Assembly (NCBI RefSeq): GCF_005473905.2
Contig: NZ_CP061336.1
Coordinates: forward strand, 1,852,501-1,916,500
Source of the DNA: Ruminiclostridium herbifermentans
Lineage (GTDB): Bacteria; Bacillota; Clostridia; Acetivibrionales; DSM-1351
Direction of reading: 5' to 3'
Length of the DNA: 64,000 bases
Shown here: one piece after another, positions 11,018 to 59,102 of the stretch
Numbering within the stretch: position 1 is the first letter of the stretch
Layout: every line of letters begins with the position of its first letter
Made by a program: the position numbers and the translations under genes
The notes under the pieces: generated by a model
What the model was told of the DNA's origin: nothing
The model's input: the letters and a program-made list of their open reading frames with translations, nothing else
The model's database searches: none

Positions 11018-12607
<1,590 letters not shown>

Positions 12608-36029: not shown

Positions 36030-36310
36030 AAACCCTCCGTCCATATGCAGGACGAAAGGTTAATCTTCCGCGGTACCACCTTGCTTGGCAAAGCCCTCTT
36101 TGTTTCTCTATAACGGGAGTTCCCGTCAAGCTTACTTCAGATTAGAACAATATTGGCAGTGCATGAACACTGAAAAGTAAGTATTTTACTAAAATACTAT
36201 TCTTGATATTGAACAAATCTGTTTCTTCAGCTTGAAGCTCAGATACCTGTTTCCATCAGTGCTCATGCCGACCTCACACCATCGTCGGCTCTCTGCTTGT
36301 CAAATATGAC
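36030..36310 (-). promoter_or_regulatory. T-box riboswitch leader of gltX-glnS
   Basis: The diagnostic T-box core AAGGTGGTACCGCGG is read on the minus strand at 36068-36080 and neighbours. It is followed by the terminator CCGTCCATATG-type stem (CGTCC/GGACG) and a T-run at 36022-36059. Upstream, AGAGAGCCGAC...GTCGGC near 36264-36292 forms the apical part of stem I. The leader binds uncharged tRNA and allows antitermination. A Glu specifier is expected; GAA within ATGGAAACAG (36271-36280) is a candidate, not proven. Confidence 0.93.
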
Positions 36311-36484
36311 TAATGAACTTAAAGATGTACTTATTATCGTCATTGCTAATAAATATCCATTTGTTTTATCATATTATATTATTTATTTCAAATGACTGTC
36401 AAGGCTATATATGCTATTATTATCTTTTATGTAATCATAATTATTTATAACAAATAAAATTAACTACTACTAAATAATTAACTA

Positions 36485-46429: not shown

Positions 46430-46474
46430 CTCGACAGTATAGTTTGTGCGAACATGGTGCATTGTCGAGCTTTT
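46430..46474 (+). terminator. Hairpin with short T-run between der and plsY
   Basis: CTCGACA/TGTCGAG followed by CTTTTAT, starting at the der stop codon; probably lowers read-through into plsY. Confidence 0.6.
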
Positions 46475-51001: not shown

Positions 51002-51012
51002 ATATTATTCAT

Positions 51013-51106
51013 TATTCATTCCTACGCTGGCATTATCCAGATCAGGTATATGGGTTTTAAGTAAAACATACTTATCTCAGCCGAATTATTTTCAGCTCCC
51101 CGAATT
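51013..51106 (-). promoter_or_regulatory. TPP (THI element) riboswitch
   Basis: Read on the minus strand, the conserved parts occur in order: TTCGGGGAGC, GGCTGAGA, ACCC, ACCTGATCTGGATAATGCCAG and CGTAGGAA. ATTC/GAAT pair as P1. Directly followed by the attenuator and thiT. Confidence 0.97.
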
Positions 51107-51298
51107 TTATTTAGTTGTAATAATTGATGAAAGTTAGTTATATTTCATGTTTTTTAAGGCTATTATTAATCAAAAGGCCACATATTAAAAAAATTTCCAA
51201 AAATAAATAAGTTTTGAATATACCAACTTCCAATGGCTATTATATCAATTAACTAAATAAATATCAATAAAAATTCTAAAAATCAAACGAACAAATGT

Positions 51299-51326
51299 TT
51301 GCATTGGTATTTTTATTTGATATAAT
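51299..51326 (+). promoter_or_regulatory. Promoter of RNA candidate A
   Basis: TTGCAT, 16-bp spacer, TATAAT. Transcription would start near 51332, at the first bases of the structured element. Confidence 0.6.
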
Positions 51327-51500
51327 ATATCGTGGTAAGCGAATTGATTATTCTCCAACTTCTATAGTTGAAGGAGCTGATTAGGTTGTCAGCTTATGAG
51401 AATACGTACAACCAAACACGATGAAATACCGCTGATGAAATAAAATTTTTCTATAATCGAAAAATAATCGAAAAATTTTATTCTGAACTTAGGTATTATG
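51327..51500 (+). ncRNA. Structured RNA candidate A (three-way junction plus AT-rich hairpin)
   Basis: ATCGTG (51329-51334) pairs with CACGAT (51417-51422). Inside, ATTCTC/GAGAAT encloses two hairpins, CAACT/AGTTG and AGCTGA/TCAGCT; GGTTGT/ACAACC offers an alternative pairing. After a CCGCTGATGA segment, AAATAAAATTTTTC and GAAAAATTTTATT form a long AT-rich hairpin and then CTTAGGTATTAT follows. It has its own promoter and lies 190 bp upstream of uvrA in the same direction. Segments match RNA candidate B. The remaining intergenic DNA from 51107 and from 51500 to 51687 shows no gene. Confidence 0.55.
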
Positions 51501-51687
51501 GCGTGGCTAGTAAAAATGCAAATTTATAATATAAATTTTAATAATACGGATAATGAACTCAATCTTCATAATATTTTTTATTAATTTGATCAGTCAAAAT
51601 TTATTATTGAAATAGTTTCAAAATTCAGCAAACCCGTGACTGTTAATAATTTAATGATGAAGCTGGGTTGAATAGAAAGGTGAGCAA

Positions 51688-54519
51688 ATGATTAGAGATA
51701 ATATTTTTATTAAGGGTGCTCGTGAGCATAATCTCAAAAATATTGATGTTGAGATACCTAGAGACAAATTTGTTGTAATTACCGGATTAAGTGGTTCGGG
51801 GAAATCCTCATTAGCATTTGATACAATTTATGCAGAAGGTCAGAGACGATATGTTGAATCTTTATCATCATATGCCAGACAATTTTTAGGGCAAATGGAG
51901 AAGCCAGACATAGATTATATAGATGGATTATCGCCTGCAATAGCTATTGACCAAAAAACCACTAGCAGAAATCCCCGTTCAACAGTAGGAACAGTTACAG
52001 AAATACATGATTACCTCAGATTGCTGTATGCTAGAATAGGTGTACCCCATTGTCCAAAATGCGGTAAGGAAATTGCTCAGCAGACTGTGGATCAAATGGT
52101 TGACCAAATAATGGCTTTTGACGAAAATACCAGAATACAGCTGCTTGCGCCTGTTGTAAGAGGCAGAAAAGGGGAATTTCATAAATTAATTGAGGACGCA
52201 AAAAAAGGTGGTTTTGTTAGATTAAGAGTTGATGGTCAGGTAATAGATATTAATGATGATATAGTTTTGGACAAAAATAAAAAACACAATATAGAGATTG
52301 TTGTTGACAGACTTATTATTCGAAAGGATATTCAAAAGAGACTGGTTGATTCTCTTGAAACTGTTTTACAATTAAGCGGTGGAGTAGTAATTATAGATGT
52401 TGTTGGAAAAGAAGAAATACTTCTAAGCCAGAATTTTGCCTGCAGTGATTGCGGAATTAGTATAGAAGAACTTACACCAAGGATGTTTTCCTTCAACAAT
52501 CCATTTGGAGCATGTCCTACATGTACAGGACTTGGTAATTTACTTAAAATTGATCCAGACTTAGTAATTCCAGATAGATCCTTATCACTTGTTGAAGGAG
52601 CCATTGTAGTTGCAGGTTGGAATGTGGAAAGTGAAGACGCATATACCAGGATGATGTTTAATGCTCTTGCAAAGCATTATAAATTTAAATTGGATGTTCC
52701 ATTCCATAAGCTGCCTGCCGAAATCATAGACATTATTTTATACGGTACAAAGGGTGAAAAAATAAAGGTTGATTATGAACGTGAGTATGGCAGCGGCTCT
52801 TACATGGCGGCTTTTGAAGGTGTAATAAATACAATGGAAAGGCGATATAAGGAATCAAATTCCGAAGGCATGAAGCAGTATTATGAGCAATTTATGAGCA
52901 ATAATCCTTGTCCTGACTGCAATGGGGCAAGGCTAAAGCAAGAAAGCCTCGCGGTTACAGTATGTGACAAGAATATCCATGAATTATCTATTATGTCCAT
53001 TGAAGATTTAAGAGAATTTTTTGTCAATATTAATTTGAGTGATAGACACTTAATGATTGCAAATCAGATTTTGAAAGAGATTAACGCTAGAATAGGCTTT
53101 CTTGTGGATGTTGGTTTAAGTTATCTTTCATTATCAAGGACTGCTGGAACTCTTTCAGGTGGTGAGGCTCAGAGAATTAGACTTGCTACTCAAATAGGTT
53201 CTGGCTTGATGGGTGTTTTATATATTTTAGATGAGCCCAGTATTGGTTTACATCAGAGAGATAATGACAAGTTGTTAAGAACTCTTACAAGATTAAGAGA
53301 TTTAGGAAACACCTTAATAGTTGTGGAACATGATGAAGAAACAATGCATGCTGCGGACCATATTATTGATATGGGACCTGGTGCGGGAGTTCATGGAGGA
53401 CATATTGTTGCGGAAGGTCCAACTGAGCAAATTATTAAAAATGAAGCTTCTATTACAGGCCAGTACCTAAGTGGAAGAAAGAAAATAGTTGTTCCGAATG
53501 AGAGAAGAAAGCCAAATGGCAAATGGTTGGAAATTTTAGGGGCAAGAGCAAATAATCTTAAAAACATTAGTGCAAAGATTCCGTTAGGGGTTATGACTGC
53601 AATTACTGGAGTTTCTGGATCTGGTAAAAGTACTCTTATCAATGAAATTCTGCATAAAAGTTTGGCAAGTCAGCTAAATAGAGCAAAGACGAGACCTGCT
53701 GATCATGATACTATAAATGGAGTAAATTATTTAGATAAGGTGATCAATATTGATCAATCTCCTATTGGTAAAACTCCTAGATCTAACCCTGCTACCTATA
53801 CAGGAGTTTATGACCTGATTAGGGAGGTTTATGCTTCAACCACTGAAGCAAAAATGAGAGGATATAAGGCAGGAAGATTTAGTTTTAATGTTAAGGGCGG
53901 CAGATGCGAGGCTTGTAGTGGTGATGGTATTATAAAAATAGAAATGCATTTCCTGCCGGATATATATGTACCTTGTGAGGTTTGTAAGGGAAAACGCTAC
54001 AATAGGGAAACATTGGAGGTAAAATACAAAGGCAAAAGTATTTCAGATGTCTTAGATATGACTATAGAAGACGCATTAGAGTTCTTTAAAAATATACCTA
54101 GAATACAAAACAAACTGCAGACATTGTTTGATGTTGGACTTGGATATGTAAAAGTAGGACAGCCTTCAAATACCCTATCAGGCGGTGAGGCACAGAGAGT
54201 TAAGCTTGCAACTGAACTTTCTAAGAGAAGCACAGGAAAAACTTTATACATTCTTGACGAACCTACTACAGGTTTACACATTGCGGATGTGCATAGATTA
54301 ATTGACATTTTGCAAAGACTTGTGGATGCTGGTAATTCAATGGTTATAATTGAGCACAATTTGGATGTAATAAAAACAGCTGATTATATTATTGATTTAG
54401 GACCTGAGGGAGGAGATAAAGGTGGAACTATTGTAGCTGAAGGTACTCCAGAACAAGTAGCGCAGGTAGAAGAATCCTATACTGGTCAATATCTGAGAAA
54501 GCTATTAGACAGTGATTGA
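51688..54519 (+). CDS. uvrA: Excinuclease ABC subunit A
   Basis: DNA-damage sensor of nucleotide excision repair, an ABC ATPase dimer. Two ATP sites: [20 protein letters not shown] and [14 protein letters not shown], with signature motifs [16 protein letters not shown] and [16 protein letters not shown]. Zinc modules are [14 protein letters not shown]...CPTC and CEACSGDG...CEVCKGKR. At 943 residues it is full length. AAAGGTGAG precedes the ATG. uvrB is not adjacent here. Two conserved Cys-rich insertions confirm it is UvrA and not a general ABC protein. Confidence 0.98.
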
Positions 54520-54601: not shown

Positions 54602-54666
54602 TAGAACTAACAATACATTATCATGGTTAAGTAATTGTCCAATATTATAGAAAGAAGGTATTGTTA

Positions 54667-55290
54667 ATGTTTAGACCAACATCTAAAGAAGAGCGTTTTT
54701 TTGATTATTTTATTGAAACAAGTGAGATTATCTGCAAAGCAGCTAACCTACTAGACGATCTAACAAACAACTATGTAGATGTTAATGAGAAAATCAAAAG
54801 AATTGAAGACGCAGAGCACGCTTGCGATAAAGTGGTACACAAAATTTTCAATGAACTAAACAAATCGTTTATTACACCTATTGACAGAGAAGATATTTAC
54901 TTAATAGCAAGAGAGTTAGATAACATTACTGACGATATTCAAGCAGCAGCCCAGAGATTTAGCATGTATAATGTACAAGAAGTTAGACCTGAGGCTATTG
55001 TTCTTTCTAAATTGATAGTTAATGCAACAAATGAACTAAAAAATGTAATATTAGAAATGAAAAACATGAAGAAGAGCAAGAATCTAGATAAGAAGATTAT
55101 TGAAGTTAATAATATTGAAGACGAAGCAGATACTGCTTTTAGAGATGCTATGACAAACTTGTTCTTAACCGAGAAAAATGCAATTGAAGTAATAAAGTGG
55201 AAAGAAATAATTGACTTTTTCGAAAATACAATTGATGCCTGTGAAGATGTGGCAAATATTATAGAAGGGGTTGTTATGAAGCATGCTTAG
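54667..55290 (+). CDS. DUF47 (PhoU-like) phosphate transport regulator, copy 1
   Basis: Helical PhoU-like protein that accompanies Pit transporters. It has the start MFRPTSKEERFFDYFIETSE, paired four-helix bundles, and metal-type acidic motifs (EDAEHACDKVVHKIF, EVNNIEDEADTAFRDAM). Use of ATG after AAGAAGGT gives 207 residues; an earlier TTG is unlikely. Its end overlaps the transporter start by 8 bp, so translation is coupled. A second copy of the pair lies directly downstream and is about 90% identical in this protein by inspection. Confidence 0.93.
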   Translation: MFRPTSKEERFFDYFIETSEIICKAANLLDDLTNNYVDVNEKIKRIEDAEHACDKVVHKIFNELNKSFITPIDREDIYLIARELDNITDDIQAAAQRFSMYNVQEVRPEAIVLSKLIVNATNELKNVILEMKNMKKSKNLDKKIIEVNNIEDEADTAFRDAMTNLFLTEKNAIEVIKWKEIIDFFENTIDACEDVANIIEGVVMKHA

Positions 55291-56281
55291 CGTATCTTTG
55301 ATATGTGTCATTGTATTAGCGCTGGCATTTGACTTCATAAATGGCTTCCATGATACTGCTAATTCTATTGCCACATCAGTTTCTACAAGAGTATTATCAC
55401 CAAGACAAGCTATTTTTATGTCTGCCTCACTGAATTTATTAGGAGCACTAATGAGCAGTAAAGTAGCGTATACTATAACAAACGGGTTAGTTGATAACTC
55501 AATGATTAAGGTTCAATATGTTATTATTGCTACGTTAGTTGCCGCTATTATTTGGGATTTGATAACTTGGTATATTGCCATTCCAAGCAGTTCCTCACAT
55601 GCCCTTATTGGAGCCCTTATCGGTTCATCAATTGCATATGCGGGTGGACTTAGTATAGTAAAATGGGATGGTGTATTCCAAAAAGTAATAATTCCGCTAT
55701 TTTCGTCTCCAGTACTTGGATTTGCTATGGGCTTTCTATTTATGAAGTTTTTATTTAAAATTCTTAGTTCTTATTCTCAAAGATTTGTAAATAGATATTT
55801 TTCTAAACTGCAAATATTTTCAGCAGCATTTATGGCATACTCTCATGGTAAAAATGATGCTCAAAAGTCAATGGGTATAATAACGCTTGCTTTAGTTGGG
55901 GCAAATATGGTTGACCCAGAGAGTGGTGTCCCATTTTGGGTTATGATGTCTTGTGCCCTTGCCATGGCATTAGGAACTTCTCTTGGCGGTTGGAAGATTA
56001 TAAAAACAATGGGTGTTAATATGATAAGACTTCAGCCAATTGGTGGTTTTGCAGCAGAAACTGGAGCTGCTATAGTTATTGAAACAATGTCTGCAATTGG
56101 TGCACCTGTTAGTACTACTCAGGTTATTTCAACTTCTATAATGGGTGTTGGAGCATCTAAAAGGCTTTCGGCTGTTAGATGGACACTTTGCAGAAATATT
56201 GTTTATGCATGGATATTCACTATCCCAGTTACTGCACTTCTTGGTGCTTTTATTACTATGTTATTTAAAATTTTAGTGTAG
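55283..56281 (+). CDS. Inorganic phosphate transporter, PiT family, copy 1
   Basis: Cation-coupled low-affinity phosphate (or metal-phosphate) importer with about ten helices in 332 residues. The family repeat is visible twice: DFINGFHDTANSIATSVSTR near the start and FMAYSHGKNDAQKSMGII in the middle, with a conserved IPSSSSHALIGALIG and GAPVSTTQVIS. Starts eight bases before the end of its DUF47 partner. No earlier start. Followed by a strong terminator, then the duplicated pair. Confidence 0.95.
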   Translation: MLSVSLICVIVLALAFDFINGFHDTANSIATSVSTRVLSPRQAIFMSASLNLLGALMSSKVAYTITNGLVDNSMIKVQYVIIATLVAAIIWDLITWYIAIPSSSSHALIGALIGSSIAYAGGLSIVKWDGVFQKVIIPLFSSPVLGFAMGFLFMKFLFKILSSYSQRFVNRYFSKLQIFSAAFMAYSHGKNDAQKSMGIITLALVGANMVDPESGVPFWVMMSCALAMALGTSLGGWKIIKTMGVNMIRLQPIGGFAAETGAAIVIETMSAIGAPVSTTQVISTSIMGVGASKRLSAVRWTLCRNIVYAWIFTIPVTALLGAFITMLFKILV

Positions 56282-56312
56282 ATGAAATTTAATATTTTAA
56301 AGAGTTTAATAT

Positions 56313-56367
56313 AAACATGAATATATTTATCTATCTTTGATATAAAATATATTCATGTTTTTTATTT
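56313..56367 (+). terminator. Terminator after Pit copy 1
   Basis: AAACATGAATATATTT/AAATATATTCATGTTT stem with T-rich tail TTTTATTT. It separates the two phosphate operons, so each has its own control region. Confidence 0.85.
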
Positions 56368-56470
56368 AGTTTTGACTTAAGAATTGTGGCTTAAAAATTG
56401 CAGGCATGGGAGAATTTAATAAATACAAGTAATTATTTGTAGCTAAACTGAAATTATGTTGATATTTAAT

Positions 56471-56498
56471 TGTTAATTCTATGTTAACTTTGTTGTAA
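56471..56498 (+). promoter_or_regulatory. PHO-box-like direct repeats before DUF47-Pit copy 2
   Basis: TGTTAA at 56471, TGTTAA at 56482 and TTGTAA at 56493: three hexamers, each exactly 11 bp apart, in the same orientation as those of copy 1. A TATATTATAG stretch about 40 bp downstream may be the -10 element. Confidence 0.62.
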
Positions 56499-56568
56499 AA
56501 AAAATATCATTGATTTATTATGAGTAAGTAAATTTTTTGTTTTATATTATAGAAAGAAGGTATTGTTA

Positions 56569-57192
56569 ATGTTTAGACCAACATCTAAGGAAGAGCGTTT
56601 TTTTGACTATTTTATTGAAACAAGTGAGATTATTTGCAAGGCAGCTGGTCTTCTAGATGACTTAACTAACAATTATGTTAATGTAAATGAAAAAATTAAG
56701 AGCATTGAAGATGCAGAACATGCTTGCGATACTATTGTACACAAGATATTAAACGAACTAAATAAAGCATTTATAACTCCAATTGACAGAGAAGATATTT
56801 ACTTAATTGCAAGGGAGCTAGATAATATTACAGATGATATTGAAGCAGCAGCCCAGAGATTTGGCATGTACAATGTACAGAAAGTCAGACCTGAGGCTGT
56901 TGTTCTTTCAAAATTAATAGTTAATGCAACAAAAGAACTAAAAAATGTAATTTTAGAAATGAAGAACATGAAGAAGAGCAAGAGTCTACAACAAAAAATA
57001 ATTGAAGTAAATAATATTGAAGATGAAGCAGATACTGCATTTAGAGATGCTATGACAAACTTGTTCTTAACTGAGAAGGACGCTGTCGAAGTAATAAAAT
57101 GGAAAGAAATCATTGATTTCTTTGAAAATACCATTGATGCATGTGAAGATGTAGCAAATATAATAGAAGGAGTTGTTATGAAGCATGCTTAG
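56569..57192 (+). CDS. DUF47 (PhoU-like) phosphate transport regulator, copy 2
   Basis: Near-duplicate of copy 1 with the same start, length and 8-bp overlap into its transporter. Differences are scattered and conservative (for example LLDDLTNNYVNVNEKIKSIE and HKILNELNKAFITP), consistent with a tandem duplication followed by drift under selection. The ribosome site AAGAAGGT and the bases around it are identical to those of copy 1. Confidence 0.93.
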   Translation: MFRPTSKEERFFDYFIETSEIICKAAGLLDDLTNNYVNVNEKIKSIEDAEHACDTIVHKILNELNKAFITPIDREDIYLIARELDNITDDIEAAAQRFGMYNVQKVRPEAVVLSKLIVNATKELKNVILEMKNMKKSKSLQQKIIEVNNIEDEADTAFRDAMTNLFLTEKDAVEVIKWKEIIDFFENTIDACEDVANIIEGVVMKHA

Positions 57193-58183
57193 TGTTTCTT
57201 TAATAGTTGTAATTCTATTAGCCCTTTCATTTGGACTAATAAATGGATTTCACGATACAGCGAATTCTATTGCCACATCTGTTTCTACAAGAGTATTATC
57301 ACCAAGACAAGCTATTTTTATGTCGGCTTCATTAAATTTACTTGGTGCACTTATGAGCAGTAAGGTAGCAGAGACAATTTCAGAGGGCTTGGTTGATAGT
57401 GAAATGATTACAGTGGAGTATGTAGTAATAGCTACCTTAATTGCTGCAATTACTTGGGACTTAGTAACTTGGTATATTGCCATTCCAAGTAGTTCCTCAC
57501 ATGCACTTATTGGGGCTCTTATTGGTTCGTCAATTGCATATTCCGGTGGTCTTAGTATTGTAAGATGGGATGGTGTACTAAATAAAGTCATAATACCACT
57601 ATTTTCATCCCCAGTTATTGGTTTTGTTATGGGATACCTGTTTATGACACTATTGTACAAATTACTCCGTCGCTTTTCACAGAGATTTGTAAATAGATGG
57701 TTTTCTAAATTCCAAATTGTATCAGCTGCTTTTATGGCTTTCTCTCACGGTAAGAATGATGCTCAAATATCGATGGGTATTATTACATTAGCTTTAGTTG
57801 GTGCTAGATATGTGGCTCCTGGAAGCGGAGTTCCTATGTGGGTAGTTTTTGCATGTGCTTTTGCTATGGCGTTGGGAACTTCTGTTGGTGGGTGGAAAAT
57901 AATAAAAACAATGGGTGTAAATATGATAAGACTTCAACCTATTGGAGGCTTTGCAGCAGAAACTGGTGCGGCACTTGTTATTCAGACAATGTCTGCAATT
58001 GGAGCTCCTGTTAGTACTACTCAAGTTATTTCGACATCTATAATGGGTGTTGGTGCATCGAAGAGGTTATCAGCTGTTAGATGGGCATTGGCAAGAAATA
58101 TTGTCTTTGCATGGATATTTACAATTCCGGTGACAGCACTTCTTGGTGCATTTATTACCACAATTTTTAAAATGTTTTTTTAA
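57185..58183 (+). CDS. Inorganic phosphate transporter, PiT family, copy 2
   Basis: Same size as copy 1 with the paired motifs GLINGFHDTANSIATSVSTR and FMAFSHGKNDAQISMGII. The two transporters diverge mainly in the large cytosolic loop and in helices 3, 6 and 10, where copy 2 carries more charged residues (KLLRRFSQRFVNRWFSKFQI). The retained intact frame and regulator imply functional diversification, such as different affinity or coupling ion; this is inference. Confidence 0.95.
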   Translation: MLSVSLIVVILLALSFGLINGFHDTANSIATSVSTRVLSPRQAIFMSASLNLLGALMSSKVAETISEGLVDSEMITVEYVVIATLIAAITWDLVTWYIAIPSSSSHALIGALIGSSIAYSGGLSIVRWDGVLNKVIIPLFSSPVIGFVMGYLFMTLLYKLLRRFSQRFVNRWFSKFQIVSAAFMAFSHGKNDAQISMGIITLALVGARYVAPGSGVPMWVVFACAFAMALGTSVGGWKIIKTMGVNMIRLQPIGGFAAETGAALVIQTMSAIGAPVSTTQVISTSIMGVGASKRLSAVRWALARNIVFAWIFTIPVTALLGAFITTIFKMFF

Positions 58184-58260: not shown

Positions 58261-58482
58261 AAGAAATTAATTATATCGAGGCAAGAAAATGTTCTTAATT
58301 ACTATAAGTGGCGAGTATCGCTTGGTTTTCATGCGTGAGAATTTCACCCAGCCTCGTTGAAACGCCTGTTGATTAAATAAATTATTCCATAATCGGAGAA
58401 TTTTTATCGAGTAATTTTTATCAAAGAATTTTAAGGAAGAATTTCTTTCGAAGAATTTCATTTAAATCTAGGCGTTATAATA
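58261..58482 (+). ncRNA. Structured RNA candidate B, related to candidate A
   Basis: CGAGGC (58277-58282) pairs with GCCTCG (58351-58356) around hairpins GCGA/TCGC and GTGA/TCAC. It is followed by TTGAAACGCCTGTTGATTAA, a hairpin AAATT-ATTCC/GGAG-AATTT with loop ATAATC, several GAATTT repeats and CTAGGCGTTAT. Shared with candidate A in the same order: TATATCG-GG-AAG, TGAGAAT, TGAAA plus CGC(C)TG-TGA, AAATAAA, ATAATCG and TAGG-TTAT. It ends before its own terminator and overlaps no gene. Confidence 0.55.
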
Positions 58483-58545: not shown

Positions 58546-59102
58546 TTTGCCTTAAATCACTAAAATAGGTGCTTAACAGTAAAAATTGATATAAATCTGT
58601 TAGACCTAATATTTTTCTTGTGTTATACTAATAAAAAATCAATAATATTTATAATGTATAGTAATATTTTAGTTTTTGTCATTGTTGGAAATAATATAAT
58701 ATATTGTTAAAGATATATTTTTTATGTTAATTCTCAAAAAGTTTGTTGTATAAGCTTGAATATTTTTGCTATAAGTAGAGGGTACTTATCCAAAAAGCTT
58801 TATTTTATATAGAGAACAAGTTGCTTAAATGTCTTTTAACAAAAAATTATTTTCTGCCTAAATTAGGCGTAGAAGGTTTATAAACTCGAATAATAATTTT
58901 GTGCTAATATACTTATTTTTTCGAGTTTCATAGACCACTAGTGGTTTTGCTTTTGTGAAAAGTTTGCATTAACGAAGTGAATTTTTTAGTTATATGGGGC
59001 TAATTAAGTTATATATAATGCTGCAAACTTATCTGCACAGAGGCTTTCCACTATTAGTTTCAGAATATTTATGTGCCTAAATGGGGCGTAGGAGGTTAAT
59101 AT
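58546..59102 (+). promoter_or_regulatory. Long structured 5' region of the clpE-like gene
   Basis: Contains AAACTCGAA/TTCGAGTTT (58882-58890 with 58920-58928), CCACTAGTGG (58935-58944), and AAGTTTGC-ATT with AATG-CT-GCAAACTT (58960-58970 with 59017-59030). A 28-bp imperfect direct repeat beginning TGCCTAAAT...GGCGTAG (58855 and 59074; 24 of 28 bases equal) occurs twice, the second copy including the gene's ribosome site. No canonical CtsR operator was found. A regulated leader is inferred. Confidence 0.5.

Follow-up and report, generated by a model that had tools for sequence, protein, structure and literature searches.

A large family of hairpin-forming, mobile-element-like DNA repeats represented twice in a 64-kb window of a Ruminiclostridium-like chromosome

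Correia, RUP and similar MITEs are small intergenic repeats that occur in many copies, carry inverted repeats at their termini and are accompanied by TA duplications. The palindrome-associated transposable elements (PATEs) of Haloquadratum walsbyi are, in the part of their published description considered here, transposase-free and have ends resembling those of IS605-type transposons (PMC3119063). Single-strand transposition by HUH enzymes is described for IS608 and ISDra2 in the sections of the source used here (PMC6006769), and IS605 copies were reported to be without strand bias, 10 of 22 being in the leading-strand orientation (PMC7290912). The window, that is, the whole stretch of 64,000 nucleotides that was analysed, corresponds to C1:1852501-1916500 in a genome assembled as one contig (4,817,678 bases), a Ruminiclostridium-like chromosome here called the source genome. 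It contains two elements, A and B, which in the original prediction were two copies of one RNA type.

Both elements are on the + strand and span from a TATA-type left end to a right end of the form TAGG[C/T][G/A]TTAT. Element B, from TATAT at its left end to TTATAA at its right end, occupies 58272..58480. Its 5' hairpin domain (58277..58356), delineated by alignments to two models, R1 and R2, and by stem-pair counts, has the closing stem CGAGGC/GCCTCG and two inner hairpins, and is followed by a 3' hairpin, H2 (58361..58476, placed by R2), the loop of which is enlarged by A+T-rich repeats and the foot of which, AACGCC/GGCGTT, covaries among the copies. Element A (51326..51501) is located upstream of an ORF at 51688-54519 that is presumably uvrA-like. 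Its 5' domain (51329..51422, R1 and R2 alignments) has inner hairpins and is closed by ATCGTG/CACGAT, and its H2 (51425..51497, R2 and covariation) has the foot AATACC/GGTATT, a compensated version of that of B.

The model R1 was trained on a set containing both A and B, whereas R2 was built from 54 full elements, most of them from the source genome or its genus, with A and B left out. In the 64 kb window R2 scored B at 93.3 bits and A at 82.5 bits, each over model positions 1-156 of 156, and the remaining four of its six matches reached 11.8 bits at most. When aligned directly, A and B are 67.7% identical over 161 bases (E 2.7e-10 for a single pair) and have the predicted common motifs in the order described, and the closing stems, unlike in sequence, are paired in both copies. 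A is absent among the 59 matches obtained with B by BLAST in the source genome (E up to 10), and its membership in the family is therefore based on the structure-aware models and the direct alignment. At A and B all 4227 families of Rfam 15 stay below their gathering cut-offs, and a relaxed search gave matches there only at E 1.9 to 7.7, none of them convincing.

The fold is real, and both hairpins covary. The covariation score was 0.260 in the first 23 sequences (0.196 when shuffled), 0.252 in the 54 full elements aligned with MAFFT (0.173 when shuffled) and 0.193 in 88 matches from other genomes, which were fitted to the model and hence biased toward it (0.160 when shuffled). None of 500 shuffles, which leave the relatedness among the copies in place, scored as high in any of the three sets. 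In the 54 full elements the cells with double changes numbered 113 against 48.1 in the shuffles, and slid versions of the same alignment scored 0.067 to 0.097. Among the 115 of 142 source-genome copies with both ends recognised (27 lacked a recognised end), two positions of the H2 foot are occupied by either a C-G or a U-A type pair, the alternation being significant at both (5e-7 and 2e-8, Fisher test), and the other three are near expectation. Covarying hairpin feet are found at both element ends, the left one beginning inside TATAA, and the 5' domain is approximately 100 nt long (by eye). Since the fold covaries across copies, the compensated stems noticed originally are a true feature of the family. 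The 5' domain of B folded as RNA is no better than shuffled sequence (z -0.33; A, z -2.50), and B folded as DNA is better than shuffles (z -2.95).

The family has many further members, and R1 gives at least 143 matches in the source genome at E up to 1. One of them (one row, E 0.925) was dropped and 142 were used, including two overlapping pairs; the figure of approximately 140 copies is a lower bound because 150 candidates were scored. The copies have the form TATAACGAGGCAAG ... GCCTCG-TGAAACGCC ... TCTAGGCGTTATAA and measure approximately 150 bp in the simplest case; the elements are approximately 150-210 bp in size, too short to encode a transposase. The right-end motif (up to three mismatches) occurs within 260 bases in 130 of the 142 copies, and in the other 12 right-end motifs are found only farther away and with two to three mismatches. 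The copies form 106 clusters, of which 77 are single and 29 are groups of two to five, and in the array that was printed the head-to-tail neighbours have one TTATAA in common. At L136 12972-13827 (C1:2468010-2468865 of the source genome) five copies stand in an array, and the 93% identity of one pair among them points to local tandem amplification. Over the 5' domain of 141 copies the median nearest-neighbour identity is 0.708, and it exceeds 0.9 in only two copies, both in one tandem array. Four antisense overlaps out of 145 were removed before identities were counted and retained in the source-genome pair counts; likewise an antisense row, L069, was left out of the per-genome identities and kept in the other-genome pair counts. 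From their sequences, the copies of the source genome, A and B included, are judged to be old, and they look like decaying remnants with no function in place detected.

The distribution of the family is patchy. At E 0.1 it was matched in 30 of the 59 genomes other than the source genome (31 of 60 when the latter is counted), and in ten further genomes of the genus the number of matches ranged from 0 to 48. Seven of these ten were matched at E 0.01, with counts from one (G002, G003 and G007) up to 46 (G010). In a sample of the class 13 of 196 genomes were matched at E 1e-5, the source genome counted. The pattern of the element also matches NZ_MZGX01000002.1 of Ruminiclostridium hungatei DSM 14427. 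In one genome (G136) all 19 scored candidates match (58-71 bits) and 18 of them score 65-71 bits, which suggests, judged from scores alone, that they are closely similar to one another. In G041 several copies of a subfamily (L216, L220-L223, L225, L226, L230 and L232) have extra hairpin-like sequence at recurring places in the 5' domain (by eye). No family match was obtained in viral contigs by exact pattern or in plasmids and phages by blastn. A real and large family of hairpin DNA, mobile-element-like in character, is thus at hand, and the repeat is not described in the literature searched (partial coverage; titles and abstract openings).

Recent dispersal is seen in G012, a genome from another family of the order, where BLAST gives 15 strong places, the query included. 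Of the other 14, one is a partial copy and 13 are near full length, with 82-96% identity to the query. The matches begin at query base 12-15 and mostly stop near base 150, and the flanks of the six printed copies of this subfamily are unrelated (by eye). In G041 one pair of copies is 96% identical over the 5' domain. A presence/absence difference at one site was found between the sister species G001 and G008: G008 lacks the copy that G001 has at L182, and the flanks are 97.6% (900 bp) and 98.0% (909 bp) identical. At this site 11 bases in G008 replace 192, some of which belong to a local repeat of the left flank. When the left flank, up to and including AATAA, is joined to the right flank, beginning with GAAAGG, the product is as long as the empty site and differs from it by three substitutions (by eye). 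Loss of L182 is possible, because the site is unpolarised, the target bases differ (AATAA as opposed to AACAG) and no copy closer than 83% identity was found in the same genome. Copy L356 of G008 was considered as a second such case and rejected, its flanks not being found in G001. A separate observation concerns one copy common to three species at the 3' end of an ORF (L177 ~12400-12600, L180 and L181); in one species the ORF reads through the element, which apparently supplies the C-terminus (by eye).

The copies are oriented with replication. With the GC skew of the source genome changing sign at 2.4 Mb, 86 of the 106 clusters are in the leading-strand orientation (p 6e-11). The flanking genes are also co-oriented with the fork (171 of 212), and since genes, too, follow the fork direction, the gene contexts were analysed separately. 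Between convergent or divergent genes, a context that is informative because transcription sets no preferred direction there, 28 of 33 clusters are oriented with the fork (28:5, p 7e-5). Between leading-strand gene pairs the ratio is 56 to 13, and between lagging-strand pairs it is an uninformative 2 to 2. In G012 the orientation is 12 to 3 (12 of 15, p 0.035), with replication halves that are less sure because the GC skew is noisier. ORFs were called crudely (at least 90 aa), and the finding of zero copies inside ORFs is not evidence of avoidance, as intragenic copies would break the ORF and be missed.

At the insertion site, TATA is present at model positions 4-7 in 120-126 of the 142 copies per position. 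Of the 122 copies compared, 54 have TATAA at the left end and 63 at the right end, and in the own-genome copies the ends have an 8-base inverted match (TTATAACG/CGTTATAA). These features could be read as the short terminal repeats and TA-type duplication of a classical MITE mobilised by a DDE transposase, and copy L079 of G012, with the same ten bases ATTGGATTTT in both flanks, would on sequence resemble a target duplication; the ten bases are absent from the other five printed copies (by eye). In the 68 copies in which the left five bases are not TATAA, however, the right five equal the left in only four and equal TATAA in 28, and most copies thus give no sign of target duplication, L079 being the exception seen. 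In the G012 subfamily, moreover, the inverted match is not kept, the right end being TTTTAA and the left TATAA, and a symmetric double-strand mechanism would not give a replication-linked orientation. We consider movement by a DDE transposase unlikely.

It had been proposed that A and B belong to a multicopy family of non-coding RNAs; in this reading the scattered copies would be RNA genes, or cis-regulatory RNAs, retained in place for their RNA function. Much of this description stands, as the family is multicopy, absent from Rfam and has a covarying fold; the consensus, in addition, has conserved unpaired stretches, and a same-strand ORF lies downstream of 84 of the 106 clusters. The status of an RNA gene fits poorly with the dispersal, with the presence and absence of copies (0 to approximately 140 inside one genus) or with an orientation that tracks replication even between divergent or convergent genes, and the 5' domain of B, as noted, folds no better than shuffles. 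Five copies that are orthologous between G001 and G008 (five pairs aligned, out of nine and ten matches in these genomes) differ at 22 of 865 positions, compared with 69 of 3575 in the flanks, which are partly coding, with gaps uncounted. The copies are thus conserved no better than their flanks, and nothing in the sequences points to a constraint in place.

If an RNA strand were under selection, G.U pairs should be better tolerated than A.C. In the whole element the tolerance of G.U is barely above that of A.C (140 cells, 0.75 of expectation, and 111 cells, 0.70, respectively). In the closing stem the summed values for the source genome are 59 cells (0.68) and 56 cells (0.66), and in other genomes G.U was counted 31 times against 37.3 expected and A.C 17 times against 23.4. 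An impression of a + strand wobble preference, gained from the first 23 sequences, was not upheld for this stem in the full set. The inner hairpin is mildly tolerant of G.U on the + strand, with 101 cells against 106.3 expected in the source genome (summed) and 42 against 62.0 in other genomes, the A.C counts being 43 against 60.5 and 22 against 44.1, and this counts against a reading of the element as DNA. All in all, an RNA gene family is possible but unlikely.

Our preferred reading is that A and B are probably copies of a non-autonomous mobile DNA element that inserts 3' of TATAA-like sites via single-stranded DNA in an HUH-like manner. The single strand would fold into two parts, the multi-branched 5' hairpin, whose foot in the consensus-like copy is AACGAGGC/GCCTCGTT, and after it the long 3' hairpin with the foot AACGCC/GGCGTT. 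An enzyme supplied in trans would recognise the folded strand and excise it, and the excised strand would be joined 3' of TATAA-like sites where replication forks expose DNA in single-stranded form. Since the right end, TTATAA, is itself a TATAA-like site, head-to-tail arrays would be partly explained, local tandem duplication being another source of arrays. HUH single-strand transposition predicts hairpins at the ends, a short fixed site on the left, strand bias, insertion without duplication and the formation of arrays at the end of the element itself, and from this set of features, by analogy, we infer an HUH enzyme as the driver. The lack of strand bias among the IS605 copies mentioned above (PMC7290912) counts against this reading.

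The search for such an enzyme gave the following picture. The source genome has a single Y1 transposase, which belongs to an ordinary IS200-like element with ends unlike those of the family. Across genomes the Y1 counts do not track the element counts, and G041 (a 93% complete genome) has closely similar copies, yet no Y1 match at E 1e-5. Loci were scanned for the ends of the family at 32 of 83 Y1 places (12 plus 20 REP-type, our label for Y1 proteins of 255-356 aa) and at 14 TnpB places. Over these Y1, REP-type Y1 and TnpB loci R1 gave 17.3 bits at best (E 0.34) and revealed no parent element or enzyme, and the TnpB and REP-type Y1 loci had no flanking copies, the best BLAST matches being 16-19 bases long. 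BLAST hits to the ends only in G012, considered as a possible parent element, were truncated copies or chance.

The same head-to-tail arrays and strand bias could also be produced by a recombination site that folds as a single strand and is mobilised by a recombinase of the tyrosine or serine type, in analogy to integron attC sites. Both hairpins are framed by AAC...GTT, which we take to resemble attC cores, and tandem units have GTTATAAC in common. We regard this as very unlikely. A further, tentative possibility is that the family represents a new class mobilised as a single strand, with a large conserved folded domain. Its enzyme would then differ from both the known Y1 transposases and the DDE transposases and could be, for instance, a recombinase that acts on the paired AAC...GTT hairpins. 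Alternatively, the element may be mobile and its 5' fold may in addition serve as an RNA partner of the enzyme.

The window and the source genome contain several other features. A second dispersed hairpin repeat of approximately 75 bases, CTCGAAAATA...TTTTCGAG plus a CCACAAGTGG hairpin, is found at 46430-46470 of the window and in the source-genome stretches L093, L168 and others. In 84 stretches it has 26 fuzzy matches. Thirteen of them fall within or next to the 3' hairpin of an A/B-type element, and some of those elsewhere are probably chance. A possible decayed relative is located at 58879-58955, between B and a McsA/ClpC-like ORF (by eye); the sole BLAST match near it, at 58959-58990, is weak (E 0.44). 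Beside B, at 54661-58183, a two-gene operon is tandemly duplicated (83% identical over 1640 bp), and it is presumably phosphate-transport-like. The duplicate was considered as an internal empty site for B and rejected, the spacers failing to align. A TPP riboswitch at 51002-51110 (-) lies upstream of a transporter-like ORF, and a T-box leader is located at 36045-36352 (-).

With the preferred reading, a candidate RNA family becomes a mobile DNA family. Covariation alone would misclassify such families, which is a warning for RNA discovery based on intergenic repeats. The family is large and spans several families of one bacterial class, and in some genomes the identity between copies reaches 96%. 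Finding its driver is a well-posed problem because the family is large, some copies are nearly alike and the enzyme was not found at the loci scanned.

Among the known systems, Correia/RUP-type MITEs are small, intergenic and present in many copies, as is the family described here, but their duplications are not seen in most copies of the latter. REP sequences and REPINs with RAYT/TnpAREP are also dispersed, clustered hairpin DNA, proposed, in the part of the source considered, to be moved by Y1 enzymes (PMC6006769). Unlike them, the family is longer, its consensus is without a GTAG/GTGG tag just 5' of the hairpin foot (by eye), and no copy was found at the 20 REP-type Y1 loci scanned. The likeness to PATEs, to the extent covered by the portion of their description at hand, is that both are short, non-coding, present in many copies and mostly divergent, with near-terminal palindromes and no target duplication, and that small repeats insert into the palindromes of PATEs as the second repeat occurs here in the 3' hairpin (PMC3119063). 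The differences are that no IS605-type parent was found here in the 32 of 83 Y1 and 14 TnpB places scanned and that several hairpins make up the large fold of the 5' domain. With IS200/IS605 elements, as they are presented in the passages considered, the family has in common hairpins at both ends, a short fixed sequence 3' of which insertion takes place, absence of duplication and a link to the replication fork (PMC6006769). It differs in having no transposase gene, the resident Y1 element of the source genome having other ends, and in a 5' domain of approximately 100 nt in place of hairpins of 20-25 nt, and the left foot overlaps TATAA, leaving no room for a guide tetranucleotide of the IS608 type as outlined in the same passages (PMC6006769). 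Because the enzyme tests were negative and the left foot overlaps the target, we do not file the family as an IS200/IS605 derivative or as a PATE, but describe it as probably working like one.
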